From assembly GCA_000310025.1 (NCBI GenBank), contig FN649751.1, positions 617,816-643,155 of the forward strand: a DNA stretch of 25,340 nt, given 5' to 3'. The notes under the pieces were generated by a model that was not told the origin of the DNA, ran no database searches, and saw only the letters and a list, made by a program, of their open reading frames with translations. Below, in pieces: positions 1-24,979 of this stretch; positions within the stretch are counted from its first letter, which is position 1; every line of letters begins with the position of its first letter. The stretch comes from Ectocarpus siliculosus. Its lineage: Eukaryota; Sar; Phaeophyceae; Ectocarpales; Ectocarpaceae. The position numbers and the translations under genes are program-made.

Positions 1-1586
1 CAGGGGCCCCTCCCCCAAAAAAAAGGGAAAAAAAAAAGGTGTGGGGTTCCCCGAACCAAAAAAACCCGGGAAAAGGGGGTTTCCCCCCACCCCCAAGGCC
101 CCGGGGGGGGGGGGTTTTCCCCCCCCCCCCCCCCCCCCCCCCCCTCCCCTCCTCAAAAAGCAGAACTACTGACTGCATTGAATTGGTACAACAACTGCTG
201 CTGTGCGCGACACAACGAACGCCATATATTACAAAACACATGCAGTCTACTGCTGTTGCAGTCTAGCTCCCAAGGGGCGACACTTGAGACAGACATTGAG
301 AGACACAGATTGGCTCAGGAGTCTTCAGCGACTACAAGGGTCCAAGTCTAGCCAAATCTAACGTATACCATATTGACAAAACAAACCATCGCTACGCTTT
401 ACTTTACCCTCTCCTCCCCATCCCCGTCCGTAAAGACCATGCTTTATCGCACAAACCTCTTGTTGAGGGGGCACTCCTTTCGTACCACGTCAATTGAAGT
501 AACAAAAATTCGACAAAATGAAATACTCTCGATTGAAACGGACGACACTTGGTGCGATCTGCTTGGTTGTGCCTGTGTGCTTTGATGTGCATGGCACAAT
601 ACAAATGATGTGCTACTAGAATACAAATAGGGTGACTATTGGGTTAAAACACGCGACGCCATCGAGATGATGGAGGTGTTCACCCGCACCCTGCTCGGTT
701 GTGGTACGTATGTAGTAGAAAGCTAAAAAAAACTCTCCCAGAAAAGCAGCTAACACTGCTCCCATGGAGCCTGTACATACCTGCCATGTTTACATACAAA
801 TCACCGCACGCGCTTTTCGTGCAGCCATGAGAGGGGACATTCCTATGCTGCGCGGAAAAAACGATCCCGCAATCGGAAAAAATACAAGGCAGCGACCTCT
901 AGCTGAAACATAAAAACACCGCCCCAGTGCATGTTGCAACAAAACACGCGTTCATCTCTTCCTCCGGCAGCGTAGAAAAATTTCAAGCAATTAATTCCGA
1001 GCAAGCCATTTCAAGCAAGTACAACAGAGAGGCACCCTTCCCACCCACTTCTTACATTGCTCCTGTAACAGCAAGAGCCACCACATCATGCAGCAGCAAT
1101 CATCGTGACATCAGTCTGTACCACGATCATGGACTCTCGCGCATGTTTACGGGGTTGTGCCCTGCTTGTGCGCTGCCAAAGCAAGGATGGATGCGGTTAG
1201 ATGCCACAATGAATCTAACGTGTACACGCAATACCGCCTAAATAGATCCTATCAAGGCCAGGCCAAAGGCCAAGGCCCACGTTATCCAGCCCGAGGCCCA
1301 TGCCGAGAACGGTCATACTGCGTTGTCAGTGTCAGTGTCAGCGTCATCATACTCCTTCCTTCCCGAAAGAATGAACCTAAACTTTGCGCTGCACTGGATA
1401 TGATCTGCTGCGTAAAAACAGGCAGCAGCTAACAAATGCTACCCTGCAGCAGCACCGTGTGTCGATACCCGTTCCCCGCCATTGTTCGTGCTCATAAAAA
1501 CGCGTAACAAATCAACCCCAACCGGTTCCTGACGACAACCCAAACCAAAATGCATCGTCACAAATCATCATGACATACATCACAAG
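1..1586. other. No supported gene; sequence downstream of gene A
   Basis: The first 150 bases are stretched homopolymers (runs of A, C and G, including 26 C at 119-144) and look like poor-quality or contig-end sequence. The remainder has only short chance frames. It would include the gene A 3' untranslated region; I see no clear AATAAA signal on the minus strand here. Confidence 0.6.
119..144. repeat. C26 homopolymer at the left end
   Basis: Twenty-six C residues follow a run of twelve G (103-114), within a stretch of exaggerated homopolymers. Confidence 0.95.
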
Positions 1587-4500
1587 TCACAACCGGTGTA
1601 CCCGGGTAACGCCATCCTCTCTTCGAAGGAGAACCGTGTACTTGCAGCCGCAGCAGGTGGCGGAAGTCACAAGCATCGCAATAGCCACGAGAGCCATGAT
1701 GATGATATGGAGGAAGGTCGACGCTGCCAGCAGCGACTCGGAGTCCTGAACGCATAACGCCCAGAAAATGCAAGAACGAGGGGGGGGGGGGGGCATGATG
1801 GGCATGGGGAGGACCCCCCCGTAACAAAAAATTGCCACGAGTGCTTGGCAACTGGAAAATGGTTGGATGTGCAGGCTGTCCCACCAAGTCTATTATTCCA
1901 TGGTAAGAACAAGTGTCTGCCACGTACGTCGGAAGTACCGGAGAATAAAACGTTGCAAACCACACGGTACCGTTCCTTTCCGTCCCGTGCCGTACTGTAC
2001 TGCACTGGAATTACCGTACCGTACCACCTTTGCCTGACAGCATGATCGGTGTACGGGCTGGAAGTCTCTAAAGGCACATAAGTCGAATTCAGCAACGGTA
2101 CAACGGAGGGTGATATGATGGCAGCAGGGGCGCACCGAAAGTGCATGATCACGGCAGCCCCCACCTCGCTCCCCCGCTCAAAACCGCTCCCACGCAATAC
2201 ACAGCCTTAGAACAACCCGGCACTGTATCGAGCGAGCTAGCCAATCAAAATCATTCTAGGTTTTCACCTCACCTCAATCTCGTCGCAACTGCTGCCTTGG
2301 TACTGCAAGCAGGTTCGCGTTGATGTCCCGTCGAAGCAATCAGTCGACCCATCCGGCTCCCAGCAGACGCAATCATATCCACCACTTCCCAGCAGATTAT
2401 ATCAATACACGTGTAGATGGAGAGAAGGATGTCATGACGTTGCAGTCCGTGGTCGTAATTAATAGGACATCGTGGTGAGGACAACAGCATCCAAAGGAGA
2501 GAGAGGGGCGTCATGGCGGGGAAAAATACACGCGGTACGACATGACACAATATCGCAAGGGGATAGGTGGCGTCGTAAAGAGACGACAAAATGCTGTCGT
2601 CGGAAAAAAGTGCGGTGAACATATTCTTGTTTTGGTCCTTCCGAACTGGACGGAAAGGCATCTTCCACCCTCTCATCGTACTCCTCCCACAAACATAGTC
2701 CCTGGTCTGGTCTGTTGTGGTGTAGGACGCACGATTGTTCCCCTTGGAACACGGAAACAACCGACACCGACCGTTTCCGGGAGGACACTACCTACATGAC
2801 TTGTACGACCGGTGATCCATCTGACTGACCGGCGTAACTGCTCTTGGTGTTAAGGCGAACGGATGACGCACACTCATTTCGTGCGACACGCAAAAACGAC
2901 GAGAGCTCCAGCACAATAAATAGTGTTTCGACTGGTGCTTAGAGAGACGACAAGATCAATACCAAACAAACTTTTGATGGAGATGAGGTACGACACAACC
3001 ACCCTCATGCCGAATCCGAACAAAGTATTTCGTTTTGTTTCGTCCGCCGGGGCATCAACGCATCAACACCAACACATGCAACTGAGAGGCGTTGCAGATA
3101 GTTCAGTCTAGAGTGCACCCTTCACGCCCAGTCCCGACACCATGAAATAGAACCAACCGTAGAACAGTCCGGGAGGCTTATCCGTTTGTACTTAACCCAG
3201 CACTCGTTTACCCCCGCCCCCCCACCAGCGTACACCCCCCCCCCTCTCCCGCAGCCACCACCAGCCAACCATTCCATCTCAAGCCTCCCCACTCACCAGA
3301 TATCATCTAGGCATGACGACGTGTCCACGCAGTTCCCCTCGGTCGATTGCACCTTGCTATAAACTGCGAATCATTTCACGTCCACAGCATGCCGGGTGCG
3401 AGAGAGCAGCCAGGAAGCCATTAGAAGAGAACAAAGAGAGCCATGTGATTCACCGTGAACTATCAGGCTTGATGTGATGGGCTTGATGTGATGTGATTTG
3501 GTGTGATGTGATACGAGATACTTCCACTTGTATGAACTTGAGTTCGTATGTTTTTTGTCCATACGACAGAGAACGGAAGGAAGGCCTGTCGCTTGCGCAA
3601 CCAGTGGCTCAAGTACCCCACAGAAACTATAAACTATAAACTATAAACACATGCTTTCCCTCCAAGAAAAGCCACAACCGCCTTCGAAACAAACATATAT
3701 ATAACAGCAAGAGAGGTGCAACCAGCGTGACTTGGCCAAAGAACTTCCAGTCACCCGTTGGTTCGAGGGAATGCACGGGTGGTGCCGTCATACAGAAGTA
3801 GAGTTGGTGGCACCAACCAATACCGATCGATGCGGACTGACGTAACGACGTCTCGGCGTCCTCCTGGCTCTCCGGAATGTACCGTGGGGTGTCCATAGCT
3901 ATATGCATGCGTCGGTGCCGCATGCCGCATGATACCGGGATACTCGAAGGCCTGCTGCGACCACTTGTATTCCAATCAGCCTACGCCCGACGCATGCAGG
4001 CACCATCATTCCCAATGGTTAACATGTAGCCCTCTCATACGCCTTCTATGCTTGGAAGTCATGGTCATAAAGAAGCGTGCTCGCGTTTGGGAAAGATCGG
4101 CGAAGAAGTCTGTTTCAGCAGAAAAGGCCACCAATCGGCGGTGTTCGTTGAGACTATTCGACTGCTTCCTGTCTGAATAGGGTCTTCGCCTACTATATTA
4201 GCCAAGCTAAGCTACAAGGCTTTTGCTTGTCTGTCTGTCGCACTTTGTCGCCTTTCTTTTCCCGCAGCCTGGCTCCTGCCTCGCCCTCACCTAGACCATC
4301 CACCAGCACCAGCGACAGCGTAGCAGCCACTAGGCACATGGCCGATTGGAAGAAGAACGCCGCAGTGGGAAACCCGCCAGAGTGCTCCGTGATGGAAACA
4401 CACGTCCCAGCCACCCCCGCCGCCAAAGCCATGAACCCCACCCAGAAGCCGCCCGCGTATTTCCAGTCTGGACCGCGGGGCGTACGGAACGGGGCCGCGA

Positions 4501-5210
4501 AACGAATGACACGACAAGAAGTACATCAGACAAGAAGGACGCAACAGGTAAACAGCGGTTCTATTGTCGTCGTGGTCTTTTACATCATGACCAACACGTG
4601 CCGATCTCCACTCAGAACCTGCTGGCGTTCGTATGGGTCCAAGTGACGCCGACAGACGACACCTTCCGCGGTGACAGGCTACATACATACAGTAACTACC
4701 GTATACCCGGATATGTATGTACACACATGTAGATAAATTGCAAAAACTCCATGAGAAAAACGACGCCTGCTCTCTGTGATCCATTTTTTTCATGACAGAG
4801 CGTTCACGAGGAAGGGCTGCTGTCGCAGATGCCATGTACCGGGAGAGGACCCTGCTTCGCTAGTTACCACTTGAGATATTCGCAAGCACATCCGCTGTTT
4901 CTTGTTCCGACAACAAGAACGCCATCCAACTATCGAAGCACCCAAGAAGAGGGAGTGTAGAATACCTCCGGGGGACAACGATATATAATAATCCCACTTT
5001 TCCTTGGTCCACATGACTAAAAAACGCAGTCTAACCCCCCACACCATTGCCCTTCCTTCCCGAGCGCAGACAGACAACAAACTGCGTACCGTTGAAGATG
5101 AGGGCTCCGACCACAATCTCCGCTGACCCCGCGGCAACAAGGATCCACCCCAGCACGTGTGAAGCCTTCACGATCCTTGGGAACGGCCTTGTCAACGAAA
5201 TTCCGCTCAT
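1587..5210 (-). CDS. Gene A: four-helix membrane protein with eight-cysteine loop (5 exons)
   Basis: Exons on the minus strand, in transcription order: 5210-5090, 4467-4291, 3363-3297, 2384-2273, 1745-1587 (stop included). They join in phases 1, 1, 2, 0 to give 211 residues. Donors are GTACGC, GTGAGG, GTGAGT and GTGAGG; all acceptors are AG, that of exon 4 (GGGAAG) lacking a good pyrimidine tract. Helix 1 is about residues 18-39, helices 2 and 3 lie in exon 2 (from FWVGF), and helix 4 starts the last exon. Residues about 100-159 form a loop with eight cysteines and the motif CVCWEPDG. A juxtamembrane CCGCK and a short basic tail follow. The model rests on matching gene B: exons 2, 3 and 4 have identical lengths and phases. 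The start is the only in-frame ATG before a stop, but an acidic in-frame stretch (VEDDEEERR) lies just upstream, so an earlier exon is possible. Function unknown; a surface or endomembrane role is inferred. Confidence 0.85.
1780..1793. repeat. G14 tract (C14 on the gene A strand) in intron 4
   Basis: On the coding strand this is a run of 14 C that starts about 48 bases upstream of exon 5 of gene A and ends about 34 bases from it, so it may act as, or replace, the pyrimidine tract of that acceptor. Confidence 0.85.
2273..3363 (-). other. Region encoding the eight-cysteine loop of gene A (exons 3 and 4)
   Basis: Exon 3 (3363-3297, 67 bases, phase 1 to 2) and exon 4 (2384-2273, 112 bases, phase 2 to 0) encode the helix 3-4 loop. 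The Cys codon split across intron 3 is TG/T. Cysteine spacing is C-x5-C-x4-C-x4-C-x-C-x8-C-x8-C-x7-C. The first six cysteines resemble an EGF-like module, although the C3-C4 gap is short for that family. The 912-base intron between the exons holds A/C/T-rich sequence and C tracts. Confidence 0.8.
3467..3513. repeat. Degenerate TGATGTGAT minisatellite
   Basis: Several imperfect copies of TGATGTGAT/GGCTTGATG units lie within intron 2 of gene A. Confidence 0.7.
3624..3648. repeat. AAACTAT short tandem repeat
   Basis: Three and a half copies of a 7-base AAACTAT unit, in intron 2 of gene A. Confidence 0.85.
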
Positions 5211-5785
5211 TCTCCTCTCCTCTTCATCATCTTCCACAGGCTGCCAGTTTTGATCGATGCATGATGATACAATTTAGTATGTCGTATTCCTCTCTTGTAG
5301 ACACAAGGCAAAGTTCACTTACGTCTACCCGCAGGATATCTCCCTAGATTGGATCTCAAGCCAATATTTTTTTGTAATAGCCTTTTATGCCCTTTGTTCG
5401 ACACATACATACCCTAATTACATTTCAACGCCGGAAATACTGGGCGATGACATCTGAACTGAAGGAAAGCACCGCGGAAAAGGACAGACGGTGGACGGTG
5501 GACCAAAAACAACTCGTGTGTTTAACCCTTTTCCTGCGTTTGTATGCATATTATGTACGTGGACGTACCTCCGGCTGGTGGGTCCCGAAAGAAAGAAAGA
5601 GAGTCTGTTGGGAGACGCCCAAGAACATTTACGAGAGCTTCGCGCGAAAAATTAGGAAACTTTGGAGAGGGCAGAGGTCATCAAAAGTCCGGTAGGAGAG
5701 CTCGAGACAACCCATCATCCATACTACCGCGCGGGAGAGACTACTGTGTAGGGACAACGCAGACCCGATAGCCGATGGCGCATGG

Positions 5786-5806
5786 ATATATATATATATA
5801 TATATA
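5786..5806. repeat. (TA)n microsatellite
   Basis: About ten TA units, some 580 bases upstream of the gene A start. Confidence 0.95.
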
Positions 5807-6690
5807 CAATGACAAGTGAAGCGCTGATGGCAAGCTGCCCCGGGACAGAGTCGAATTGACAAGATTCGAACACAAGCAATAATAGAGTTTGAATTTTCAA
5901 GACGCGCACAATGCATAGCAATTTTCCATTGGGAGCAACGCCACTGATGGCCCTCCACACCCACCCATGTATTTTGTATCAACATCTACTTGAAGGTGGC
6001 GGCGGGGCGACCAGTAAACAAACGTCTAACGTATACTGCATAGACGTTCCGGACGATGCTATTATACTCCTTTGACTTCTCTGTTTCGTTTTTTTTGTAT
6101 TCTAGCAGTTGGTCATCATCAGAGGGTCATGAATCTGCATGCATAGCTACAGCAGCGTGGTTGCGCAACGTCGAAGTATTTTGTTCTGAAAACTGAAAAC
6201 TGGTGTCTGCTGGACATTCTCAAAAAAAAAAAATCTGAGTGAGGACGTCGACGCATTTACTACATGTGTGCAGGACTTGGAGGAACGGCAGCTCTCGATA
6301 CGCGCTGCAGATCGCCGCTATTCGAGAAGCTGAGGAAGAGGATAGTCTAAACCGTGGATGCCCGTATCGTTGCTTATGGTCCGTACATCGGTCAGCCGAT
6401 TCGCTGCGTGCGCGGGTCAATGTCAATGCCCGCCGCAGGCCACGCACCACCCTTACCACCCTGAAAGTGCGGTGCAACCTCTTTCTCTGCTCATCATCTT
6501 GCATGCCATATATTATATGTATGTACATCGAGCGCGGCGGGCCACATGGTTGTGTCGCAGAGCAAGCATAGGACTGGCTATCCGCGCTTCGCCCTTCCGC
6601 CATCCAATATGTGACACACGCTTCTTGCACTCTACTGCTTGTACTGATGCTGCGGTATGACAGGGAGGAGAAACGCGTGCTGAACTGACG

Positions 6691-6732
6691 TGCACCATGC
6701 ACCATGCACCATGCACCATGCACCATGCACCA
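6691..6732. repeat. TGCACCA minisatellite, six copies
   Basis: Six essentially perfect head-to-tail copies of a 7-base unit (42 bases). The periodic MHHAPCT-like peptide read across it is a by-product of the repeat. Confidence 0.95.
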
Positions 6733-9250
6733 GTTTTTACCACAGGTTTATGGGGATCCCGGAGTGGTGCTGCCAAGGGAATGGCCACAGCGACGCAGCG
6801 CGGCGGCGGAACGAGATAAAAAACACCGGTTGTCCGCAACAAGCTTGGTGCCTCGCGCTCGCCCCGTTTATCAGACCCCTCTGGTGGAGCAGAAAGCCTG
6901 TGAACTCTGATGAACACAACAACACACACCCATGCAGCACTGCCCTGCCTGCAGATCACCTGCTGGTCCTTCCTATCTATAGTCTATATGGCGGGAGGCG
7001 CTTTGGATTCATGACGGGAAGGAATCAACCGTGCTTTGGAAGCCCTCGGCAGCGTTCCGACCAACCCATATCAACGGACAGACAACGCATGCAAGCGCGC
7101 CGCTCTTTGCTGCTTTTGTTGATCACGCGTTGCGGGAGATTCTGCTGATCATACAGCGGTACTGCGGCTGTCTCCGTCGTGGTACAACACATTCATACAC
7201 AGGTCCAAAAAACGGTAGAACCGTGAACTCACCCCGTTGTTTCTCACGGGCATCGTCGGCGCTGCTCCACCCTTTGGCGTCGAGGCCGAGGGAGCAAAGT
7301 TTGGAGGGCTCATGATCTGTACTAGGCGGGGAAAATAATGGAGCTGGAGTGATGGGAGTATGGGTACGGAGTGCAGCAGCAGCCAAAATCCCCATGTGGT
7401 CTGAACGAAAAAAAAACTCGCACGGTCCCTAACTCATCAGGGGACCACCGAACGAAGAACCCGTCTCTCTGACAGAAAAGAATGTACTTCGAAGTACGAA
7501 ACATCAACCTTGCCTTGTTGTCTCTTCCCCTCGCAACAAATAAATCCATTCATTCATTCGTCGAGCAAGGCTGCTGTGTGTGGTGGAACACGAGTGAGTC
7601 TGCTGTGATATGTACCGGAAGGTGCCCACCACGTATGTATGGATAGACTATACATACATAGTAGACGACGTTTGGAGCGAAGACTCATCCTGAGTCGTAG
7701 TACATACGTTATACCACGTATTAATATACACACGCTGCAGCACTTTTTGTTAATTCACCGTACACCGAGCCAGCGTTCTCGTAACCAACGTGGGGACATG
7801 CACGGTAAAAACCCACCTTATCTAAACTCAGCAAACCTACACCCATAACCCAACCCAGCCCTCGATCCTTCCCCATCATCATCACGTGGCCATGGGTGCA
7901 TTGCTAGAGGAGCAAGAGGCTACAAAGTAAGCACATTGTGTGCATACGAACCCCGGATTTTTTTAGAATCTACATTCAAACACAAAGAATTACGCTGCAT
8001 TTCCCTTCGTAGACTACATAGTGTCCAAGCACAACAGACAAGAAAACCCGGGCGGTTGAGAAAGTTCCCAGGCGCGCACACGTTTTCGATGCACTTGGTC
8101 CAAAGAGCCACAGCAGATAGACAGGACCTTAAAATCACCTCAATGCGGTTCAACGGGAACGAAAGGAAAATGGTCGGCTTCACTCTGAATGATTCATTAA
8201 CGATATCACAGCAGTACAACAAACGACTGACAGCAAAAAATGGTTCGCTCTCGACGGACGACATACAAATGGTTCACTCTGGTTGTTTTACGACGAAAGG
8301 TTGGAATATGAACAACTCTGCTTACCCTGCGTAGGCGTGTCTTCTTGTAGACTGACAAGAAACAAAACAAAATCGCATTCCTTCCTTCTTCGAAGCAACA
8401 GCACAAGTCGCAACAATATGTGAGTGCAATAAGAAACCACGTATTTCAGTACAACGCAAGCATGCCACTTGGGCAAACGTTCAACAAAGCAAACAATCAT
8501 TGGCCTGCTCCGTAGGCGATGCGATGCAAGATTCAAGGTCTCAAACCAGTTGATCGCTACACACAATGGACTCAGGTTGATCAGGTCACTGCACCGAACG
8601 AAGCAGGCGGCAAACATCCCTCCTCGCCTCACGATCAAAACCAATGTCAAGTTTCGTCCATGCGTGAGTCGACAGCCAACTACCAAGTACGAAATAACCC
8701 CAAGCTTTGCCAAATGTACGGACAAAATTTACAATCCTTTATCCTACTGTAGGGTACCAGACCACCAGCACCACCCCACTACACGGACCGCGGGCACCTC
8801 GCATGGCCACCACCACTCCTGCTGTACACGGATGTGACACCCATTTACGACTAGGTCGAAGCGCCAACAACTCCAATACCCCTCTATATCAACGTGATTC
8901 GAACGCTACCATGCCATACCATACTACAGCAACTTCGCTTCGACCCGGCAGCGGGGCGCGGAAAAAAGTCGACTCAAGCACTGGCCAAAACTATTTGTCG
9001 CGGAAACCGGTGTCGCGCAAATGAACTGGCTACGGGTAAAAGTGCGTTTCATAATTCTTCGCTAGCCGGGCCTACCGTTCCAACAAACTACCGACACTCA
9101 CCACACAAACACCTGGAATCACGCACGCCCAACAAAAATGTCCCCACACCTGGAATCACAACCCCGGTTGTCACGACCAACAATTAACCACAGCAACATG
9201 GACAAACATCAACGGCATCGGCAACACTGCAGGCAGTACTATAATAACAG

Positions 9251-9270
9251 CAACAACAACAACAACAACA
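9251..9270. repeat. (AAC)n microsatellite
   Basis: About six and a half CAA/AAC units, downstream of gene B. Confidence 0.9.
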
Positions 9271-9334
9271 TTAGGCGGCCAGCCAAAATACAGGGACGAC
9301 AGACAACAGACGGCCGGCGGCAATGATATTTATA

Positions 9335-9340
9335 TTTATT
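9335..9340 (-). terminator. Possible polyadenylation signal (AATAAA) for gene B
   Basis: AATAAA on the minus strand about 505 bases past the gene B stop, in an AT-rich patch. Position and motif are compatible with a cleavage signal, but a single hexamer is weak evidence. Confidence 0.25.
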
Positions 9341-9845
9341 CTCCTAATCAATTACGGGACCACGCGAGTGGAGGCCTGAAACAAACTCAGCACAAGTAGA
9401 TAGATAGCAACGCCCGATCTAAGCTTGTGAGATTTTGCCTGGGGTCCGTCATTCAACTGCCAGCGACCTACACACTGCAGCCGCTCATCCCTCCGGCGAG
9501 ACTTGGTCTCCAGTCGAAGAAGCGAGTGATGTCAGGTGTCACTTGTCACATTTCACTCGCTACCAACGGACCAGAGACAAACGACTGTGAGCCACGCCCC
9601 CCGGCCTACGACAAAATTTCTAACAGCGCCCGTAGCTAGAGTGCTTCGGCATTCCCCGTAGGGCCGAGAACGAGCGTTCGCGAATCCAAACTGCGTCCCT
9701 CCCCCAGGGGGCCAAGTAAAACGTGGCACTGCTGTACAAACGGCCTCGTGCGGTTCTGTCCAACGACTGCAGTACTATTCGACATACCTTGCTCGCACGA
9801 CGCTTTGGTAATCAATCCTCGGAGAAAGGGAGGTAGAACAGCTAC

Positions 9846-12659
9846 CTACCGATAGCTAGACGATTCTTCGCTAGACTCCACGACGATGGTGCGCTTGCAG
9901 TACCAACACGTGTTGATGGCTACCACCAGCGACCAGAAAGAGCAGAAGGCGATGATGACTAAGATGATGAAGGACCCCAAGAGGATATTTTCAGAGTCCT
10001 GTCATGTCAAGTTTCAAGTCAAGTCGCATCCGACAAACGGAAGTAGCGCCACGGCCGCAGAAAAAAAAAAAAAGTAAGGGACTTTTGAAAGGGGGAGCAT
10101 CAAGAAAAGAACAGAAGAAGAGAGCTGACAGCCATGCAAAAAAAAAAGGAAGAACAAGAGTTGAGAAATTTGAATGGGAGAGCAACAGGGAAAAAGAGAG
10201 TTGACACTCACAAACGGAACAAACAAGATACATGAACGGGGGGGCACCAGAAAAAAAAACTCCGCAGAAGATACTCCACCTAAACACGGCCTACACAATG
10301 AGACACGAGTGGACCTAGGATCGTACAGTATTAGTAGCACCTTGAACAATCACGGAAATATATGTGGTCCAGCACTCAATGCCGCCTTATGGTGCGGTAA
10401 TCCGACAGCGGCCTATGGATACAGCAGTACGACGAAAAACAGGGCTTGAGCGGAGGCCCCGTCAATCATAACAGGGTACCCGTCACCCACTTTGCTGGGC
10501 ACGCCGCGCACCAATTTCGCCTTCTCCAACGCACCTTGATATCGCTGCAGCTGTCTCCCCCAAACGGGACGCAGTAACGAACGCTTCCCGCATCCGAGCA
10601 AACGTCAGTCCCGTCTGGCTCCCAGCACACACACGCGTCCTCCGGACTGATTGGTGATTGATTCCACGGTGCACGACACAGGACACAAGAGACACGAGCA
10701 ACGGCAGCACTAAGCGGGACAGGACAGCTCATCAGGGGCCCACTTGCGCGCCACATCTACCTTGTATCTTGCCGGGACGCAAGCCATGTCTTCATGCTCG
10801 TCACCCTGGACCTACGGCTTGCGAAAAGACTAGTTAGAACTACAATCACTCACACATAAAAGGCAGGCCGGCCTCTGCTTGCTTTGGCAAAAGGCGGCCC
10901 GACCAGCGATAACGATACCAATGGGTCCAGCGATAGGGACAGAGGGCATACCTAACCTCCTTCCCAAAACGCACCCCTCTCCATCGCCCATCATTTGTTC
11001 ATTCATTTTTCAAAACAAAATACTCCACTCACCAGAAGTCTGATGGGCAGTCATCGCCGTCTCGACAGTTCCCATTCACATCTCTCACAATCAGGAACGC
11101 TGTCGTGTAAGTGTGAGTGAGAGTTTGAGCATGCATGTCGTGTCATGCATTAGTGTCAAGTGTTGAGTCGGGCGGCGGGGGGGCGGGGGTATGTCCACGC
11201 TTGTGCCTGTTCCTACCGTACCTGTACACCATCTTCTACTGTCGTGGCATTTCGTTGAGATTTCCATGTACGCCATGCTGCATGAACCCCGCTTTGGGGC
11301 TTGCCTGTAACGACGGAGATTCCTCCTGTACACTAAACATGAACATTTTTCTGAGTTCGCCTGTCGACCGCTATTCATAGACCATTCTAATTATTACCAC
11401 CTAATAATGTTGATAGACTAGTGCGGGAGGGTACTTTTTTGGTTGCAGTACTGCCGCACCAAGGCTGGAACAGTTATTAAGGCAACGTGAGGCTAGAAAA
11501 CGCGTCAGCAACAAAAGCAACAACAGTATGCCTAGCGGTACTGCTGCAGATCGAAATAGTTTACAATACCCTGGAGTGTGAATTACGCCACGCAAATGTT
11601 GTGTGTCTAAAGGCCTCCGACGAGAACCCACGCCTCTTACAAGTAGCCTTCCTGTTAAACGTCACAAATACAAACAAGTTAAAGCGGTCGTATCAAAGCA
11701 GGCCCGGTTACTTGGTGGCAAGCGTGACCGACCATCGACTTCAACCCTAAACGAAAGCCGATCGAAGGTCGGGCAGTAGACCTGGAACGTTAACTACTCG
11801 CGGCTACAGTAAGACAATGAACATAGCATAATCCACCGCGAAGTACCTACGAGGTCGGAGTACATCATCATACTGAACTCTACGCCGAACATTGGTGTCC
11901 GTACCCGCGCCTGCCCGCGACGTGATCTCGTAGTTTGCGCTGTGGTTGTGTTGTGTTCATGATTTTTCAAGCAGGATAGATCTCTCTTAGCTCTTAGCTC
12001 TCACTTGCTCCCTCGCCCAGGAAAATTGACACCACCGATGCGGCCAGCGTGACGAGAGACAGGAGCGCATAGAACACCGTTGCCAGTCCGCCAGACGCCT
12101 CTCCCTGCGTGACATAGATGCCCGAGGTGCCCGCAGCCATGGCCACAGCACCTACCCAGAAGGACCCAATCCCTTTCCACTCTTTGTCGAGGTACAGTAT
12201 TTGGAGTACATTACAGCAGTGCAGTAGTGCAGCGGTACAGCGAAAGAAACGGCGACGGGCATGCAGTCAAGGATGCGGCGCAATTCAAACGCGGCCGCCA
12301 CGAAATCGGGACACTTACCGACGGGCCGAGGGCTGAACGCGGCATGAATCCGCCTTTGTCTGTTTTCGCTCTGGGGGCGAGAATGCTAACACAGCAGAAG
12401 AACACAACGGCGCGTTCGGACAAAACTCTCTGGGTACAAACAATAAGTAATAGAGACAGAAAAAAAGAAATAAGCCCTCTCCTCTCTACCGCTCACCGGT
12501 AAAGATGATGACCCCCACGACAACGCTGGACAAGCCCGCCACCACGAGAGCATTCGCCCAGAAGTGCGAGCAGCTGATGGCGGCGTGCTTCGGCCTCACC
12601 AAGCGCGCGCCCGAGTCCTCCTCCGGCGATATCTCGGTTTGGCGGGAATGGTAAGACAT
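9846..12659 (-). CDS. Gene B: tandem paralogue of gene A, four-helix protein with eight-cysteine loop (5 exons)
   Basis: Exons in transcription order: 12659-12497, 12181-12005, 11099-11033, 10646-10535, 9998-9846 (stop included), joining in phases 1, 1, 2, 0 to give 223 residues. Donors are GTGAGC, GTGAGA, GTGAGT and GTGCGT. Residues 1-32 are polar and acidic (TEISPEEDSG); helix 1 is about 33-53, helix 2 begins at FWVGA, helix 3 is about 90-110, helix 4 starts the last exon, and CWYCK then an acidic Ser/Glu tail follow it. The loop between helices 3 and 4 has eight cysteines at exactly gene A's spacing. Exon 2 is about 40% identical to its gene A counterpart and exon 4 about 46% (counted by eye). 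With the N-terminus in the cytosol the loop would be extracellular or lumenal, which suits disulfides. The frame stays open upstream of the chosen ATG to 12794, so the start is less certain than the rest. Function unknown. Confidence 0.86.
10535..11099 (-). other. Region encoding the eight-cysteine loop of gene B (exons 3 and 4)
   Basis: Exon 3 (11099-11033) and exon 4 (10646-10535) match gene A in length, phase, the split Cys codon (TG/T) and all eight cysteine positions. CVCWEPDG is identical in the two proteins, and a D-x-x-S-x-R-x-C pattern is shared. The residues between cysteines are otherwise mostly changed, as expected for a disulfide-stabilised extracellular module under selection mainly on its fold. 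Confidence 0.8.
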
Positions 12660-12704
12660 GCTGATGCTGCTTGGTGTGCGAGCGCTGCCGCAGCGTGGTG
12701 TGGC

Positions 12705-12726
12705 ATGTCGATGTCGATGTCGATGC
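12705..12726. repeat. ATGTCG short tandem repeat
   Basis: About three and a half copies of a 6-base unit, just upstream of the gene B start. Confidence 0.8.
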
Positions 12727-13092
12727 CGAAGAATAACAACGGGGGCACGAAACACGAAACAAGCGCCATGGGTGGACGGCATGGAGGCGAACACAAAGGT
12801 GGAGCATCATCAGAGGGGGGCAAGCATGGCGAAAACGAGAAAGGATGGGAACCCAAGCGAGCCAAGCACGCGACAGAAGTCCCGCCAAGCAAGACGCGCG
12901 CGTCCTGCCAAGATTAAGGTTATGGTTCATAGTAAATAGAGTGTCTCGAGCTTTGTCAGCAGGCTGTGTTGACAAGCCCCCCCGCCCGCGTTGGGTGAGG
13001 TGTGGTATGTCCACGTCAACCTTGGCTGTTACAGTGCTCGATGCAGAGCAGTGCTACCGAGAACCAAGAAGCAGCAGGTGCAGCGACAAGGG

Positions 13093-13942: not shown

Positions 13943-15222
13943 GTCAGGCTAAGCTCAGCCTTATCAGGCAACCCTGATTTATTGCCTGACAGCCCCTTTT
14001 CAGATCGGGGTTGCCTGAGAGGGTGTTTGGTGCCTGAGATGCCTGACTTTCGCCAGGCAACGCAGCAAACCGCCAAAACACGTGTCAGGCATCATAAAAT
14101 AAACGCCAACTCTCATAAGTAGGTATGTAGGGGGCCGAGGGGGGCCCGTGAGACACAGAGAGGGGGAACAAATCAAGCACGGACCCCCTCCTAATAAAAA
14201 AAACAAAAAAGTAGAAATGGATTCGTTGTGCCATATTAAGAAAAAAAAAAAAAAATGCACGGCCTTGCGCGCTCGACGAATGATGCGCCGTGGTAGTTTA
14301 GCTAGCGGTGTGTCGTGCTGGTAGTAGTGTCGTGCTGGCAGTGTGTCGTGTGGTCGTGCAGCAAGATGCTGCCAGCTAACTTTTCTTGCCCGTGCGTACA
14401 TGAAAGGGATTGCGGGAAAGTCGAGGGGGCGCCAATAATCTGGCTGCTCGCATTTACCTCCGGTCATACTTTAAAAATCCTGGCCCCCTGCTCCTAGAGC
14501 TCGTTGACTGTTAGCGTTGTCTATTTAGCGCTTCTGCACACACCAAACAGATGGAAGTGGGGGAGGATGGTAATTATCGGTTTACCATGCCTTGCGTCGG
14601 CGGGGAATGCTTTGCTTGTTGTCGTACGTTGAATGTCCGAATCTTGTTTTGAACGTTTTTGTTTGTTGTCTGGTTTCTTTGGCATCTATCTGTACAACAA
14701 TCTTCTTTGCGAAGTAATGGTTTTCTCTGTTTCTTTCTGCTTCTCCAGCCTCTGTGCGCTCTCTGTACCTCGCCCCTCGCCCCTCGCCCGCTTCAAGCAA
14801 CCTCTTGCTGATGTTGGTGGAGTACTGAGTCGAGACGCATGGGGTGAATGGGGGGAACCAACGTACACTGCTGTAAATAAATGTTGTTTGCAACAGAAAA
14901 CAATGGTATATATTTTTCGTCAACTACGTGTCTGAATACTTCAGTGTAAGCCCTGAATGCCAACACTGCCGGTGCACGTTAGTTGCGCGCTACAGTTGCG
15001 TACTGAGGGCGCCAAAACGACTTGAATGGCTTTCAGGCAAGTGTCAGGCAAGTTTTCAGGCAGGTTGCCTGATTCAAATCAGGCATTTCAGGCAAAAACC
15101 TGGTGTCAGGCAAATGCCTGAATTTTTGCCTGACCCCAAAATTTTTCGCCTGCGGCGGGCTGTTTTGCACATGCCTGAAGCACGCCTTCGGCGTGCCTGA
15201 TAAGGCTAAGCTTAGGTCAGGC
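13943..15222. mobile_element. Putative non-autonomous inverted-repeat (foldback/MITE-like) element rich in GCCTGA
   Basis: The 22 bases at 13949-13970 match the reverse complement of 15194-15215 at 21 of 22 positions. Next to each, internally, is an arm crowded with TCAGGC/GCCTGA hexamers: about seven in 13943-14091 and about twelve in 15032-15222. These hexamers are essentially absent from the 940-base centre. The centre has no transposase-like frame. Terminal inverted repeats with subterminal hexamer arrays suggest a non-autonomous DNA transposon or foldback element; I could not define a target-site duplication. Confidence 0.45.
15183..15195. repeat. Short hairpin beside the right inverted repeat
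   Basis: CGCC, a short CTTCG-type loop and the complementary GGCG form a perfect GC-rich hairpin abutting the right-hand inverted repeat. The left arm has no counterpart. Confidence 0.4.
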
Positions 15223-19042: not shown

Positions 19043-22000
19043 GTGAGTTTACAGGCTAACGGGGAGAGGGGAGTATGCGGCTGAGGGGGCCCCGTCGTGT
19101 GGGGGCAGGGAAGGCAAGGGTGTGGGTACGGAGGAAAGTAGGGGGGTTACAGTAGGAAGCTGAACGAGAGCACGGGGTATCCATTTCATGGTTGGGTGCA
19201 GGGTCCTGGAGAACCGGGTGGTCGCGGCCTTAACAGTACTCGCCTCCCGTTCATTATCATTATCATAATGCCAGGCTCCTTGTCTTGGATGGGGGGATAA
19301 GCAAACTCCTTCTTTAGGTACCTCAAACACCCAAGCCCCTATATAAGACGTAAAGTCTCGGCGACGGGCAAGTGTTGGGTTACGAGCATGCGATGCTGTC
19401 CGTGCTGTCTGCGTTGCGTCCTTGAGGAAGGAGGGGCGGCGGACACAAATCATGTCAAAGCAGTCATCCGGTACCTGATTTTGGGGACGGAACAAGGGAC
19501 GGGATAAGACAAGGCCACAGACCCGTCGTGTGTGTGCCCGCAGAGGTGCCGTGCCACCGGCCGTGTGTCGATAGCAATACCAATCGCTGCTTGCACCGTG
19601 ATGATTGGGCGTGCGCTGGAGATGTGGTATGCATGATGTACAGAACCGCCACAAAGAGCTGGCTTGACTCATGCCATATCTTCAACGAGGTACATGCTTC
19701 TATGTGAGATCCGCGGGGTCGTGAACATCAGGTAGGCCGCACGGAAAATCGAGCTACTGCCAATCGTGCTGCTGCTTGCCTTGCAGGTACATGTTGTTGT
19801 TGGTCTATGCGTATCTGTTTTGGCTGGCTGGACAGAGGGTCAACTACGCGCTCGTCCACGTGGAGAACAAGTTTGATGTCGCCAGGACGTTGGGGGGTGC
19901 CTTGATGTGCCTCACGGTGCCCCTGGCCACCTACCAGGTGAGGCGATTTTGTTGATTTTTTTCTTCTACTAGTATCTGCTGTTGTTTTGGCGCATTCAGG
20001 TCATGGAGTACCCTCAAACACATCACAGGCTAAGCTATTCACCCACCAAAGTACGGTAGCACCACAAAAGCCACAACTCGGTACCGCACCGTATGCTGCA
20101 CTAGGTCTGCAAGAAAACCACCACCGTAAATTGAGCGCTGTAACACAAGCCTATCAGACGGAGAGGGAGCACGCGACAACACCGGGTGTGTGCTGGTACT
20201 GTCCATTCGGTTGTCATTGAAGTGCATACGTTACAAGTAAGGCGTGCCCTGCTCCCGTATGTTCGGGATATTGCGGGGTCATTCTCAATTAGGTCACTGT
20301 CGGTACACTCCTGCCGTGCCCCTGCTTGTGGTACTGCTGCAGCCGCTCTCAATGAATTTTGCTTCGAGACTGGCTTGCCTTCGCCTCCCCTCCCTGCCGC
20401 AAATTCTCTTCTCGCCCCTCTGTGTTTGTCTCCTCTCTGTCCATCCATACCGTCTTGCTGCTCCTACTGCTGTGGTGTATTTTTTTTCTTCCGGTGTAGG
20501 GCTGTGCATTCATGCCCTCATTCCCGCATTCCCTCATTCGCTCCCTCCCTGGTGTGGCGGTGGCGTGCGATGACGCCACGATCACCGCTTGACATCCCGG
20601 TGCTCATGCTGCTGCCGCCGCTGCCGCTGCCGCTGCCGCTGCCGCTGCCGGTGCTGCATCGTCCCGACGGGTTGAAAATGGAGCAGATCGTGCTGCATCT
20701 GTCCAATTTCGTGGAGCCGCGACAACAAAGCCAAATCGTGCGTATCGTCTTCATGGTGCCGACCTACAGCGTCACCGCCTTCCTGTCGCTCCGGTTCATG
20801 CACTGGTGAGTCAGTGACTCAATGGACCTCCCTCTTCCCTGGTGTCGTTGTAGCGAACGAACCGAATCGAAGGCGTGGTACGGTAACGTACCGTGAACGT
20901 ACCGTGAAAGTCGCGGTAAAGTATGCGTCCCGTGCCACCACGTGGCGTGACGACTAGGCTTCACATTTGCTACATGTGTGTATGGATACCTGAATGGTTT
21001 TATTGCGCGCATGATGTCTGTTGAGATACTTTCGTCGTGGTGAACGCATTGGAGTACAATAGTTCGTTGGCCACCTCTCGAAACTGCTTGTGTCGCTGGA
21101 GCGGCCTTGACGTGTGGTTTCCGTCCGTTCGTTTGTTCTCGCAATGCTTTACCCTGCTTGCTTTGAGCAGGTCACTGTTTATCACGACTGTGCGAGATTG
21201 CTACGAGGCTTACGTGATTTACTGCTTCCTTCACTTTCTGGTGGGGACGCTGGGAGATGGCTTGCCCGCGGCGAATAGGTGAGGTGCATGGGGTGCATTG
21301 CGGCGATGTGGCGATGGTAGCGGTGGTATACTACCGTACAGCAGCCATTGTGTGACCGTGCCGGAGTGAGTGGGCGGCATTGTGATCACGGTTGATGCCT
21401 TGTTATGTTGTATTTGGGTTGTGCGGACATGGTTGCTTTTGTGTTGTGCTTGTACACTGTACTCTCCGCATTGGTTGAAGTAGAAGGCGAACCGCACGTG
21501 TTCCCGTGTGGTGCACATCGGGGCTTATGGAGAAAGTGGTGGTGGAGGGGTTAGAGCTGGTATGATGGTATGATTGTAATGAGTCATGAGTCAGCGAGGG
21601 AGGCTTTGATGCCGGTTCCGTGTGCAGATTGTCAGATTGTGCGACCGACTGTTGGCCTGACATGCTTGGACAATCGAACGAACATGCTTGGTTCACGGAT
21701 GGGGATGGGGATGGGGTTGATGCCTGCTCGTGCTTCGTAAAGAGTAGAGTGCTCGTTGTTGGTGTGTTTTTGCTTGACGGCTACCAGGTGCGTTCGTGTT
21801 CTACTGTAGGGCCGGTAGCATCTACATGAATACGTTACACTTGATAGCAGTTGAGTGTTAGTGTTAGTGTGGGTGATTGCGTTGCTTCGTGGCTCCCCCT
21901 ACCGCTCCCCATGCCAACGCTCCCTGCCGAACACATTTCCCTGGCAATGGCAATGTCACCATCGTATCGCCGCTGCCTTGTACAGCCGATTGGCGGCCAT

Positions 22001-24979
22001 GCCGCCGGTGGTCGGGCGTCACGTGCCCCCGTTCTGCTGCCTGGAGCCGTGGCAAATGGGCAGGGAGTTCCTACAGAGGTGCCAGGCGGGCGTGTTCCAG
22101 GTCAGTAACGGGCGCGGGGTGCTGTAACAAGTACTAGTGAAGTTCGCGTGACATGTCCACATGAAGTTGTGCTGCAGGCCAAGACGATAATTACCTCTTT
22201 TTTTTCCCTTTTGTGCCCGTCTGCACGTTGGCTGCTGGTGCTCTCCCCCATTGACCGATCATATTAGAGTTAACTTTAACGCTAGCGTTAACTGCACGAA
22301 GATGGTCTCTTCGCTGTGTTGTTTGGTAGGTACAAGGTGGATACAGCAGTCCACCCGTACGTAACCTCTGCCCGACAAGTTGGTGCAATGTATTCGTGTC
22401 GGCGATGGTGATGGTGACGGTGACAGGGATGGCTACCGTCCCATCCTTTAGTGGTCGTTTCTTGCCGTGTAGAGGTCGCCGCGGCTATCGCAGCTTCCCT
22501 TTAGCGCCCCTCTTAGTTTGAGGAGTCGCTCGTGCGCCGGGTTTTTCCAGTTGCGCACATGGCGTTCCCTATTAATAGCAGTCTCGCTGTGTTGCCCACT
22601 TGGGTCCATTGCACAGTAGTAGTCAAGGCCGGAAGCAATATTACGCAAGTATCTAGCCGCTCAGACAGCTTCAAACCGCACGACGAGATTTATGGACGGC
22701 CGCTCCCGCTCTACACCCCAGCTCCTGCTTGGCGATTCCCAACTACGCACCACAGCCGTGTGCATGGCCGGGCCGTGTTCGTTGCGTGAGGCAGGTTTGG
22801 GATTCCATACAACCGAGGGTAGTGGACGTTTCATGTAAGCGTCTGTTAATTACCATACTTGTGCCGGCACTCTCTCTTGTCCGGCTGGCTGCGCACTTGT
22901 GCTGTATTCTTGCGTGCAGTACGTGCTCATCAGACTCGTGAGCACTGCCGTGGCGCTCGCCCTCCAGCTGGGGCACTTGTACACGGAGGGGGACTTCGAC
23001 CCGAAGCGGGGGTACCTTTGGATCACCGTCGTCACTTGCTGCAGCCAATCGTGGGCCCTTTACGTCCTCGTCCTCTTTTACCGGTGGGTGGGCAGACCGA
23101 ACCAGGCCTCTAGCGTATGGGGGGTGGTTTGAATGGGGTACACTATGGAATGGGGTACAATATTGAATGGGGTACAATATGGAATGGGGGGTCTGACGAG
23201 GTCTCAGCTAACCCTGCGTCTTTGCGGTGTGTGTGTGCGGGTGGGTGGTACGCGAGCGAAGCACTTTGTAAGCCGAGCCTGCCGCAAGTGGCAAGTGCAT
23301 CTTTGGATCATCAGACCGCCTGCATGGATTCCCATCCGATCCCATCCCATCCCGTATCCTCTGACTTCCCGACCGGCACTACTATTTTGATATGTACTTC
23401 TATAGTGTAGAGATGATACGACGGTATGACCTTCGAGCCGGTTTGTACGGTTTGCCAGTCTTTTTGGTGAGGGCTGGGGTTGGAGTTGTCCAGGAAGTAG
23501 ACGCCCTGGGCTATTAGATGAATTGATTAACTGTTGCTGTGTTGCTGTGCGCGCTTGTACGTTAGCGTAGCCCACCGCTTTTCTGACATCCGTGCCCCCC
23601 GCCCCGCCTACTCCCCCTGGCCGGCCGTCTTCCGGCTTGGCCCCTGGTTGGTGCTGCTGGGGAAACCTTAACATTAAACTTGCTTGCAAGCAGCGCTACG
23701 TACAAGGAGCTGGTGCATATTCATCCCATGGGCAAGTTCCTGGCCATCAAGACCATCGTCTTCTTCAGCTGGTGGCAGGTGCGTCTGGCGTGTTGCTTGT
23801 TGATGACGATGCTTCCGGGTCGTGAGAGTTTAATGGGATGCAGATCGAGCTGGCCGTCTGGCAGGAGAGTGTTTGAGGTCTGCTGTAGGGTCTCTGCATA
23901 TGTGTATGTACCATTTCGCCTGTGTTCGTGCTTCGGAACATCTTTCGCTGGCGGGAGCGAGTGTTTTCTCACGCTTCCTTTTCAGGGGCACGCAGGGGTA
24001 TCATCGGTACATTGCTACCCACGCCCGAGGACCGTGAGCCGCCCGTGGCGCGTGTGCTTGATGCCCAGAGTTGAAAAAAACTGGCTCTACACCCCGGGGA
24101 CCCGTTCCGCGCGAAGAAAGCCTTCGCAACAAGTACTCGAAACCCGCTTTGCGTAAACACAACTTTTGGTTCCTGCGCAACGCACACAAGTCCCACAGAC
24201 CATGGGCAACATGAATACACAAGAGCGAGTGATCAAACGCGGCGGAGGACAAGGGTAGGACCTGCAGCAAAGACGCCACTAGCCTAAAAGCACACAATCA
24301 CGCTCACGCGAAAAGTCACGGCGAGACAAAAAAATACCCCGCACAAGATAGCCGCAAATTCCTTCTGCAGGCATTCGGCGAAACCTGCTTAGTCGTGACG
24401 TTGAGATGTAACGATGAGATCGCGATAGCATTGACCATGTCGCCTTGCGTTGCCCCCGGGAGGCAAGCCACCTAACTCCTGAAAGGGGAGCCTTGTATGG
24501 TTTTCCAGTGTGGTATTTTTTTTTTCTGGCTGCCCGAAGTGCCGATGCGTGGAATGTCATAACGTCCTGACACACCGGCTTGCCATGTTTGTGTTGAGCG
24601 TGAGGGTCTCGTGTTGAGATTTATTCTGTCTCTTGTCTCTGATGTGTCTTGCAGGTTTTCTGTTGGTTGTCTATCCATGCCATGTCCCTGATGCGTGTGG
24701 TGATACTGTTGTCTGTTCTGTCGTTGTTGTTGATGCTGTTTTTTGTTTGTGCTGTTCTTGATGCCCTCAGTGATGCCGTTGTTGGTGCCGTTGATGATGA
24801 TGCGTGAACGTAGATGCTTCAATGGTAATGGTCAGCCCCTCGTTTTCTTTTCGTCATCCTCCCAGGGCATCTTGATCGAGATCCTGGAGGGCCAGGGGTA
24901 CTTCGCGAGCGTGGTTGGCGTGAGCAGCGGCGAAGGAGGTGACCTGTCTGAACATGACCCCTCGGAGCATGTAGCACAG
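18768..24979 (+). CDS. TMEM184: TMEM184 / OST-alpha family (DUF300, Solute_trans_a) membrane protein, 8 exons, 3' partial
   Basis: Exons: 18768-19042, 19787-19937, 20687-20805, 21171-21278, 21986-22100, 22920-23083, 23694-23778, 24866-24979. They join in frame (phases 2, 0, 2, 2, 0, 2, 0) to 377 residues with no stop. Family landmarks in order: VRIVFMVPTYSVTAFLSL (about 161-178), VRDCYEAYVIY (about 190-200), PFCCLEPWQMGREFLQRC (about 232-249), GDFDPKRGYLWITV, LFYRATYKEL, GKFLAIKTIVFFSWWQ, then GILIEIL. This is the conserved core of TMEM184 proteins, multi-pass membrane proteins of the organic-solute-transporter alpha superfamily; substrate cannot be read here. The usual closing helix after the last exon is missing, so at least one exon lies beyond the window; 24980-25340 is intron. 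Donors are GTGAGT, GTGAGG, GTGAGT, GTGAGG, GTCAGT, GTGGGT, GTGCGT and GTATGT. Exon 1 (Ser/Gly-rich, from ATG at 18768) is the weakest part; exons 2-8 are secure. Confidence 0.92.
20608..20651. repeat. GCTGCC hexamer repeat in TMEM184-like intron 2
   Basis: About seven GCTGCC/GCTGCCG units end about 35 bases before exon 3, immediately upstream of its acceptor region. Confidence 0.85.
22277..22292. repeat. 16-base perfect palindrome in TMEM184-like intron 5
   Basis: TTAACGCTAGCGTTAA is its own reverse complement. One such palindrome is not surprising in 25 kb, and no function is claimed. Confidence 0.7.
23131..23189. repeat. 17-base minisatellite in TMEM184-like intron 6
   Basis: About three and a half copies of a GAATGGGGTACAATATG unit with one- or two-base differences, about 50 bases after the exon 6 donor. 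Confidence 0.9.
23688..23693 (+). promoter_or_regulatory. NAGNAG tandem splice acceptor before exon 7
   Basis: The sequence AAGCAG gives two in-frame acceptors three bases apart. Use of the downstream CAG yields LFYRATYKEL, which matches the family pattern LFY-x-A-T; the upstream AAG adds one Ser. I chose the downstream site for the gene model. Confidence 0.6.

Follow-up and report, generated by a model that had tools for sequence, protein, structure and literature searches.

A tandem pair of predicted tetraspan membrane proteins without a named family in Ectocarpus siliculosus

A CCG motif in the large loop is a hallmark of the tetraspanins (PF00335); in claudin/PMP22-type tetraspans it is helices 1 and 2 that flank the large loop, and helix 2 of the CD20/MS4A proteins (PF04103) shows a W-G-G...S-G spacing. 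Here, we set against these systems the products of two minus-strand genes (the ‘gene pair’) lying in a 25,340-nucleotide stretch of the brown alga Ectocarpus siliculosus (assembly GCA_000310025.1, contig FN649751.1, positions 617,816 to 643,155 of the forward strand; hereafter ‘the window’, to whose first letter coordinates refer). The pair is an orphan in the libraries searched but of an ordinary kind, namely a tetraspan membrane protein with a Cys-rich second outer loop.

With tetraspanins the pair shares four helices, a short first outer loop, a large Cys-containing second outer loop and cysteines bordering helix 4; it differs in having an eight-Cys loop built around the sequence CVCWEPDG, no CCG motif in that loop and no significant profile match. 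The likeness to claudin/PMP22-type proteins extends to the four helices only, as their large outer loop is the first, whereas the first loop of the gene pair, as judged by hydropathy, spans roughly ten residues and is thus short.

Two diverged tandem paralogues

The initial annotation proposed two genes on the minus strand encoding 211 and 223 residues, and both their positions and their lengths reproduce exactly: the upstream gene runs from 12659 to 9846 (223 amino acids) and the downstream gene from 5210 to 1587 (211 amino acids), each in five exons. ‘Blind’ below refers to the six-frame comparison described after the list.

Upstream gene, exon 1: 12497..12659, minus strand, 163 bp; N-terminus and helix 1, phase 1 at its end; seen in the joined alignment, absent from the blind comparison
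Upstream gene, exon 2: 12005..12181, minus strand, 177 bp; codes for FWVG...AAG with helices 2 and 3, entered and left in phase 1; blind E 1e-7
Upstream gene, exon 3: 11033..11099, minus strand, 67 bp; start of the Cys-rich loop, phase 1 to 2; blind E 0.004
Upstream gene, exon 4: 10535..10646, minus strand, 112 bp; carries the CVCWEPDG loop, entered in phase 2 and left in phase 0; blind E 1e-10
Upstream gene, exon 5: 9846..9998, minus strand, 153 bp including stop; helix 4 and the tail TCWYCK; blind E 0.001
Downstream gene, exon 1: 5090..5210, minus strand, 121 bp; N-terminus and helix 1, phase 1 at its end; absent from the blind comparison
Downstream gene, exon 2: 4291..4467, minus strand, 177 bp; helices 2 and 3 (two helices predicted by AlphaFold2)
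Downstream gene, exon 3: 3297..3363, minus strand, 67 bp; start of the Cys-rich loop; found in the blind comparison
Downstream gene, exon 4: 2273..2384, minus strand, 112 bp; CVCWEPDG loop; found in the blind comparison
Downstream gene, exon 5: 1587..1745, minus strand, 159 bp including stop; helix 4 and the tail TCCGCK (one helix predicted by AlphaFold2)

Exons 2-4 measure 177, 67 and 112 bases in both genes and the intron phases are 1,1,2,0 in both, the equality claimed at the outset being recovered to the base; all eight introns are GT-AG, and the reading frames stay open over all five exons in both copies. When the joined proteins are aligned (BLASTP), 78 of 202 residues are identical (39%) with no gaps, at an E-value of 8e-47, and the Smith-Waterman score of the pair is 389, against 62 +/- 14 (maximum 117) in 1000 shuffles that were carried out within 20-residue blocks, such that the hydropathy pattern is roughly kept. 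With this identity and their collinear exons, the two genes are diverged tandem paralogues of shared ancestry, as had been supposed.

The same exons emerge from a comparison blind to the gene models, in which open six-frame fragments of at least 20 amino acids were matched between positions 9000-13000 (131 fragments) and 1000-5700 (162 fragments). Eleven rows fell at E <= 0.1, the top four of which are collinear minus/minus matches corresponding to exons 4 (1e-10), 2 (1e-7), 5 (0.001) and 3 (0.004); the fifth (E 0.005) is exon 2 matched in antisense, and the remaining six lie at 0.017 or above. As background, each locus was compared with the 505 fragments from elsewhere in the window, giving 9 and 19 rows with best E-values of 0.018 and 0.012. 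Exons 4 and 2 are thus far above background, and exons 5 and 3 modestly so. As to the proposition that the match between the copies proves the exons, four of the five lead the blind list, two of them strongly, while exon 1 was not recovered at E <= 0.1 and is backed by the joined alignment together with a phase-1 donor common to both copies. The gene models are least secure at exon 1, and hence at the N-terminus and start codon.

At this end, the downstream gene has a candidate, though unproved, extra 5' exon at 7233-7313 (minus strand), where 81 open bases (27 codons from an ATG) run to a GTGAGT donor in phase 0; in step with this donor, a CAG acceptor lies 30 bases upstream of the start codon as now modelled and would supply ten more codons (PVEDDEEERR).

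Mismatches between the copies, counted over 209 codons, number 100, 91 and 134 at first, second and third positions, so that third positions vary most. Estimates by NG86 give a non-synonymous divergence (dN) of 0.73 and a synonymous divergence (dS) of 1.82, the latter so near saturation that the ratio of ~0.4 is only rough. Taken together, the codon-position pattern and these divergences suggest constraint at the protein level and an old duplication. Decay into a pseudogene, or a lack of transcription, might nevertheless be supposed for either copy or for both, given that exon 5 is just 26% identical between them and that the pair is known here from sequence alone. However, frames open over five exons, eight of eight canonical introns, the excess of third-position change and the retention of all eight loop cysteines argue otherwise, and we regard this reading as quite improbable; judged from the DNA, both loci look like real genes.

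Predicted anatomy and family comparisons

The claim of four helices in both proteins, and with it that of a tetraspan topology, is supported by hydropathy, which picks out four hydrophobic 19-residue windows in each, and by single-exon models. The structure prediction that had been suggested as a check was made for single exons with AlphaFold2 and yields two helices for exon 2 (mean pLDDT, the predicted local distance difference test score, 71) and one for exon 5 (mean pLDDT 79, falling to 47-55 over the last dozen residues); being of single exons with two-row alignments, these models are uninformative on the overall fold, and helix 1 is supported by hydropathy only.

Helices 3 and 4 are joined by a loop of some 75 residues (74 and 76), which holds eight cysteines, every one conserved between the copies, and the identical CVCWEPDG. 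It is markedly acidic, with 16 and 15 acidic residues against 4 and 2 Lys plus Arg. Directly after helix 4, both copies carry TC..CK.

Searched as joined proteins, the pair matches nothing significantly in Pfam (best E 0.39, listed at E <= 10, with HMMER filters discarding most matches above about 0.1), in NCBIfam (best E 0.77) or, with a two-copy profile added, among PDB sequences (best E 0.098). Nor do the loops on their own give a significant Pfam match (upstream, a zinc finger at 0.075 and late nodulin at 0.12; downstream, DUF6748 at 2.4). Short exons alone fail to explain this silence, since three of four single exons (41, 35 and 54 amino acids) of a plus-strand neighbour match Solute_trans_a at 1.1e-11, 7.6e-7 and 2.7e-14, its 48-residue exon not doing so. 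This neighbour, at 19791-23081 and by eye perhaps extending to about 24980, is an organic solute transporter alpha-type gene (matched by PF03619, Solute_trans_a), which we take to be TMEM184-like. The view that no named family can be assigned is therefore borne out, where ‘unrecognised’ means having no significant match in Pfam, NCBIfam or PDB sequences; homologues are probably present in brown algal proteomes as unnamed proteins.

We considered whether the two are very diverged true tetraspanins, in which the hallmark motifs have eroded. Four helices and a large helix 3-4 loop, in the same topology, were found, and upstream exon 2 aligns with positions 51-96 of the Pfam Tetraspanin model in a plausible register, albeit without significance (E 0.8, with a score of 9.8 bits where the cut-off is 32.1). 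However, the joined proteins and downstream exon 2 have no Tetraspanin match (the latter hits DUF3042 only, at E 2.7), and the loop lacks CCG in both copies, the one CCG of the downstream protein sitting after helix 4. The intron phases also differ from the phase 0 of ancestral tetraspanin introns, a weak point, because seven of ten derived introns are in phase 1 or 2 according to PMC2650405. Membership is not accepted, with both the loop CCG and a profile match missing, and we consider descent from tetraspanins unlikely.

Assignment to a broad CD20/MS4A-like four-helix group appears improbable. Besides four helices and a short first loop, both copies have W-x-G-x6-G at helix 2, in keeping with the MS4A spacing, although this is a short helix motif and weak as evidence; their second loop is far more Cys-rich than that of MS4A proteins. 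The PF04103 profile does not match either protein; membership is not accepted. Its only match in the genome is on another contig at E 1.74, which says little, as the controls in that search went undetected. Clear MS4A genes are, in the survey of PMC2826416, unreported in protists, plants, invertebrates and jawless vertebrates, and the short similar stretches in invertebrate MS4A candidates are described there as recurring across many unrelated membrane proteins.

Two clusters of weak PDB matches recur neither in the other copy nor in the two-copy profile, whose own two matches fall on an antibody light chain (E 0.49) and on a rhodopsin (E 1.3). Low-density lipoprotein (LDL) receptor class A modules, which have six cysteines and an S-D-E calcium cluster, make up two of three matches of the downstream protein (E 1.6 and 2.4), and the spacing W-x2-D-G-x3-C-x-D-x6-C fits the single such chain with an alignment; the outer loop could then be a degenerate calcium-binding module. 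These E-values are at chance level, though, and the upstream copy finds no such module; with one of the cysteines, the S-D-E cluster and any match to PF00057 all missing, membership is not accepted, and we think this reading very improbable. For the upstream protein, four of five matches are light-harvesting chains, all to residues 87-123 (best E 0.098), which might mark helix 3 as that of a light-harvesting-like membrane protein. This is a lone, non-significant stretch of 37 residues in one copy, with no light-harvesting match in Pfam; membership is again not accepted, and the idea is scarcely credible.

Relatives and genomic surroundings

The genome-wide search of the source assembly (189 Mb, 492 contigs) was filtered, such that distant members may be missed. 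Within it, each protein as query gave seven matches (seven candidates scored each), all from the two window genes, and thus no third copy. The pattern C-x-C-W-E-P has three matches in the genome against none for its reversed control, two of them the window's own; the third, at C10:40995-41017 (minus strand), is an isolated CTCWEPDG with two following cysteines, either chance or a remnant, for which no companion exon was seen in 9.9 kb of flank among the matches listed.

A looser loop pattern has 13 matches against 11 for its reversed control, 11 of the 13 not being the window's own. Five of these loci (C10, C456, C26:4058031, C15 and C8:401021) show no companion exon in their flanks among the matches listed, the other six having been judged by matched letters alone; the best exon-4 scores at pattern loci (E 0.0025 and 0.015) are circular, because the pattern chose those loci. 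The helix-2 pattern gives 10 matches against three reversed, two being the window's own; of the other eight, C13 and C26:2676604 show no convincing companion exon among the matches listed and six were judged by matched letters alone.

Further afield, 63 pattern matches in viral contigs and 71 in bacterial and archaeal genome contigs yielded no confirmed relatives, and phages, queried with the downstream protein only, yielded none; these collections are viral, prokaryotic and phage rather than eukaryote genomes, and uniqueness is not shown thereby. At the level of titles and abstracts, a literature search found no such family described in brown algae. As far as the searched libraries tell, the gene family may be lineage-restricted.

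Elsewhere in the window, an element of ~1.3 kb at 13949-15215 is bounded by 22-base inverted repeats that are 95% complementary, and a 169-base stretch forming its left end recurs 13 times elsewhere with 89-100% identity, alongside shorter and weaker matches. It is perhaps a recently active DNA transposon, judging from these left-end copies rather than whole elements. Positions 1-149 form an odd run of homopolymer blocks, with a C tract at 119-149, which may be a poorly resolved stretch of assembly. The EsV-1-7 family is expanded in brown algae, and its cysteine repeats (PF19114) have at least 150 matches in this genome (of 880 candidates, 150 were scored and every one passed the cut-off) against none in 14 control genomes; counts of this order point to a brown alga.

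Proposed role

Synthesising the predicted anatomy, we suggest that the gene pair encodes membrane scaffold proteins that are ‘tetraspanin-like’ in topology, not in membership. Basic residues lie before helix 1 and after helix 4 and, by the positive-inside rule, basic residues mark the cytosolic side of membrane helices; an N-in/C-in arrangement with the Cys-rich loop outside would fit. Both protein ends would then be in the cytosol, and the short first loop and the ~75-residue loop on the outer or lumenal side; there, the eight cysteines would be paired in disulfides. The two cysteines of C..CK, which closely follow helix 4, may be acylated. Since four helices, an exposed acidic Cys-rich loop and possible acylation sites constitute a tetraspanin-type anatomy, we speculate that a lateral membrane organiser, presenting its disulfide-bonded acidic loop to partner proteins or to wall/matrix material in tetraspanin fashion, is the most likely role, at roughly an even chance.

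Several points weigh against this proposal. The helix 2-3 loop, cytosolic in the proposed topology, has no Lys or Arg, and the short outer loop has one Lys; the former therefore lends no support to the topology, and the charge argument is not uniform. A scaffold function would follow from analogy of topology, at the level of anatomy only. Neither protein shows a catalytic or transport signature, although no test was aimed at transport or enzyme function.

A more particular version, which we hold to be distinctly unlikely, would place the pair in a family of surface tetraspans particular to brown algae, or possibly to stramenopiles more widely. The family would have an eight-Cys acidic outer-loop fold of its own and an origin independent of the tetraspanins of animals and plants, and its members would be membrane organisers linking cells to the wall matrix in a lineage that became multicellular separately. 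According to PMC8307928, alpha-integrin-like membrane proteins occur in brown algae and are unlikely to act as in animals, and an integrin-like pathway is still to be shown. A matrix-coupling role for the gene pair would, if true, be of interest.

Finally, the gene pair serves as an example of short-exon genes without a family match that were established through comparison of paralogues. Should it be expressed, it would add a four-helix membrane family of distinct Cys pattern to the poorly known cell-surface proteins of a multicellular lineage; failing that, it probably joins the many membrane gene pairs that are restricted to one lineage.

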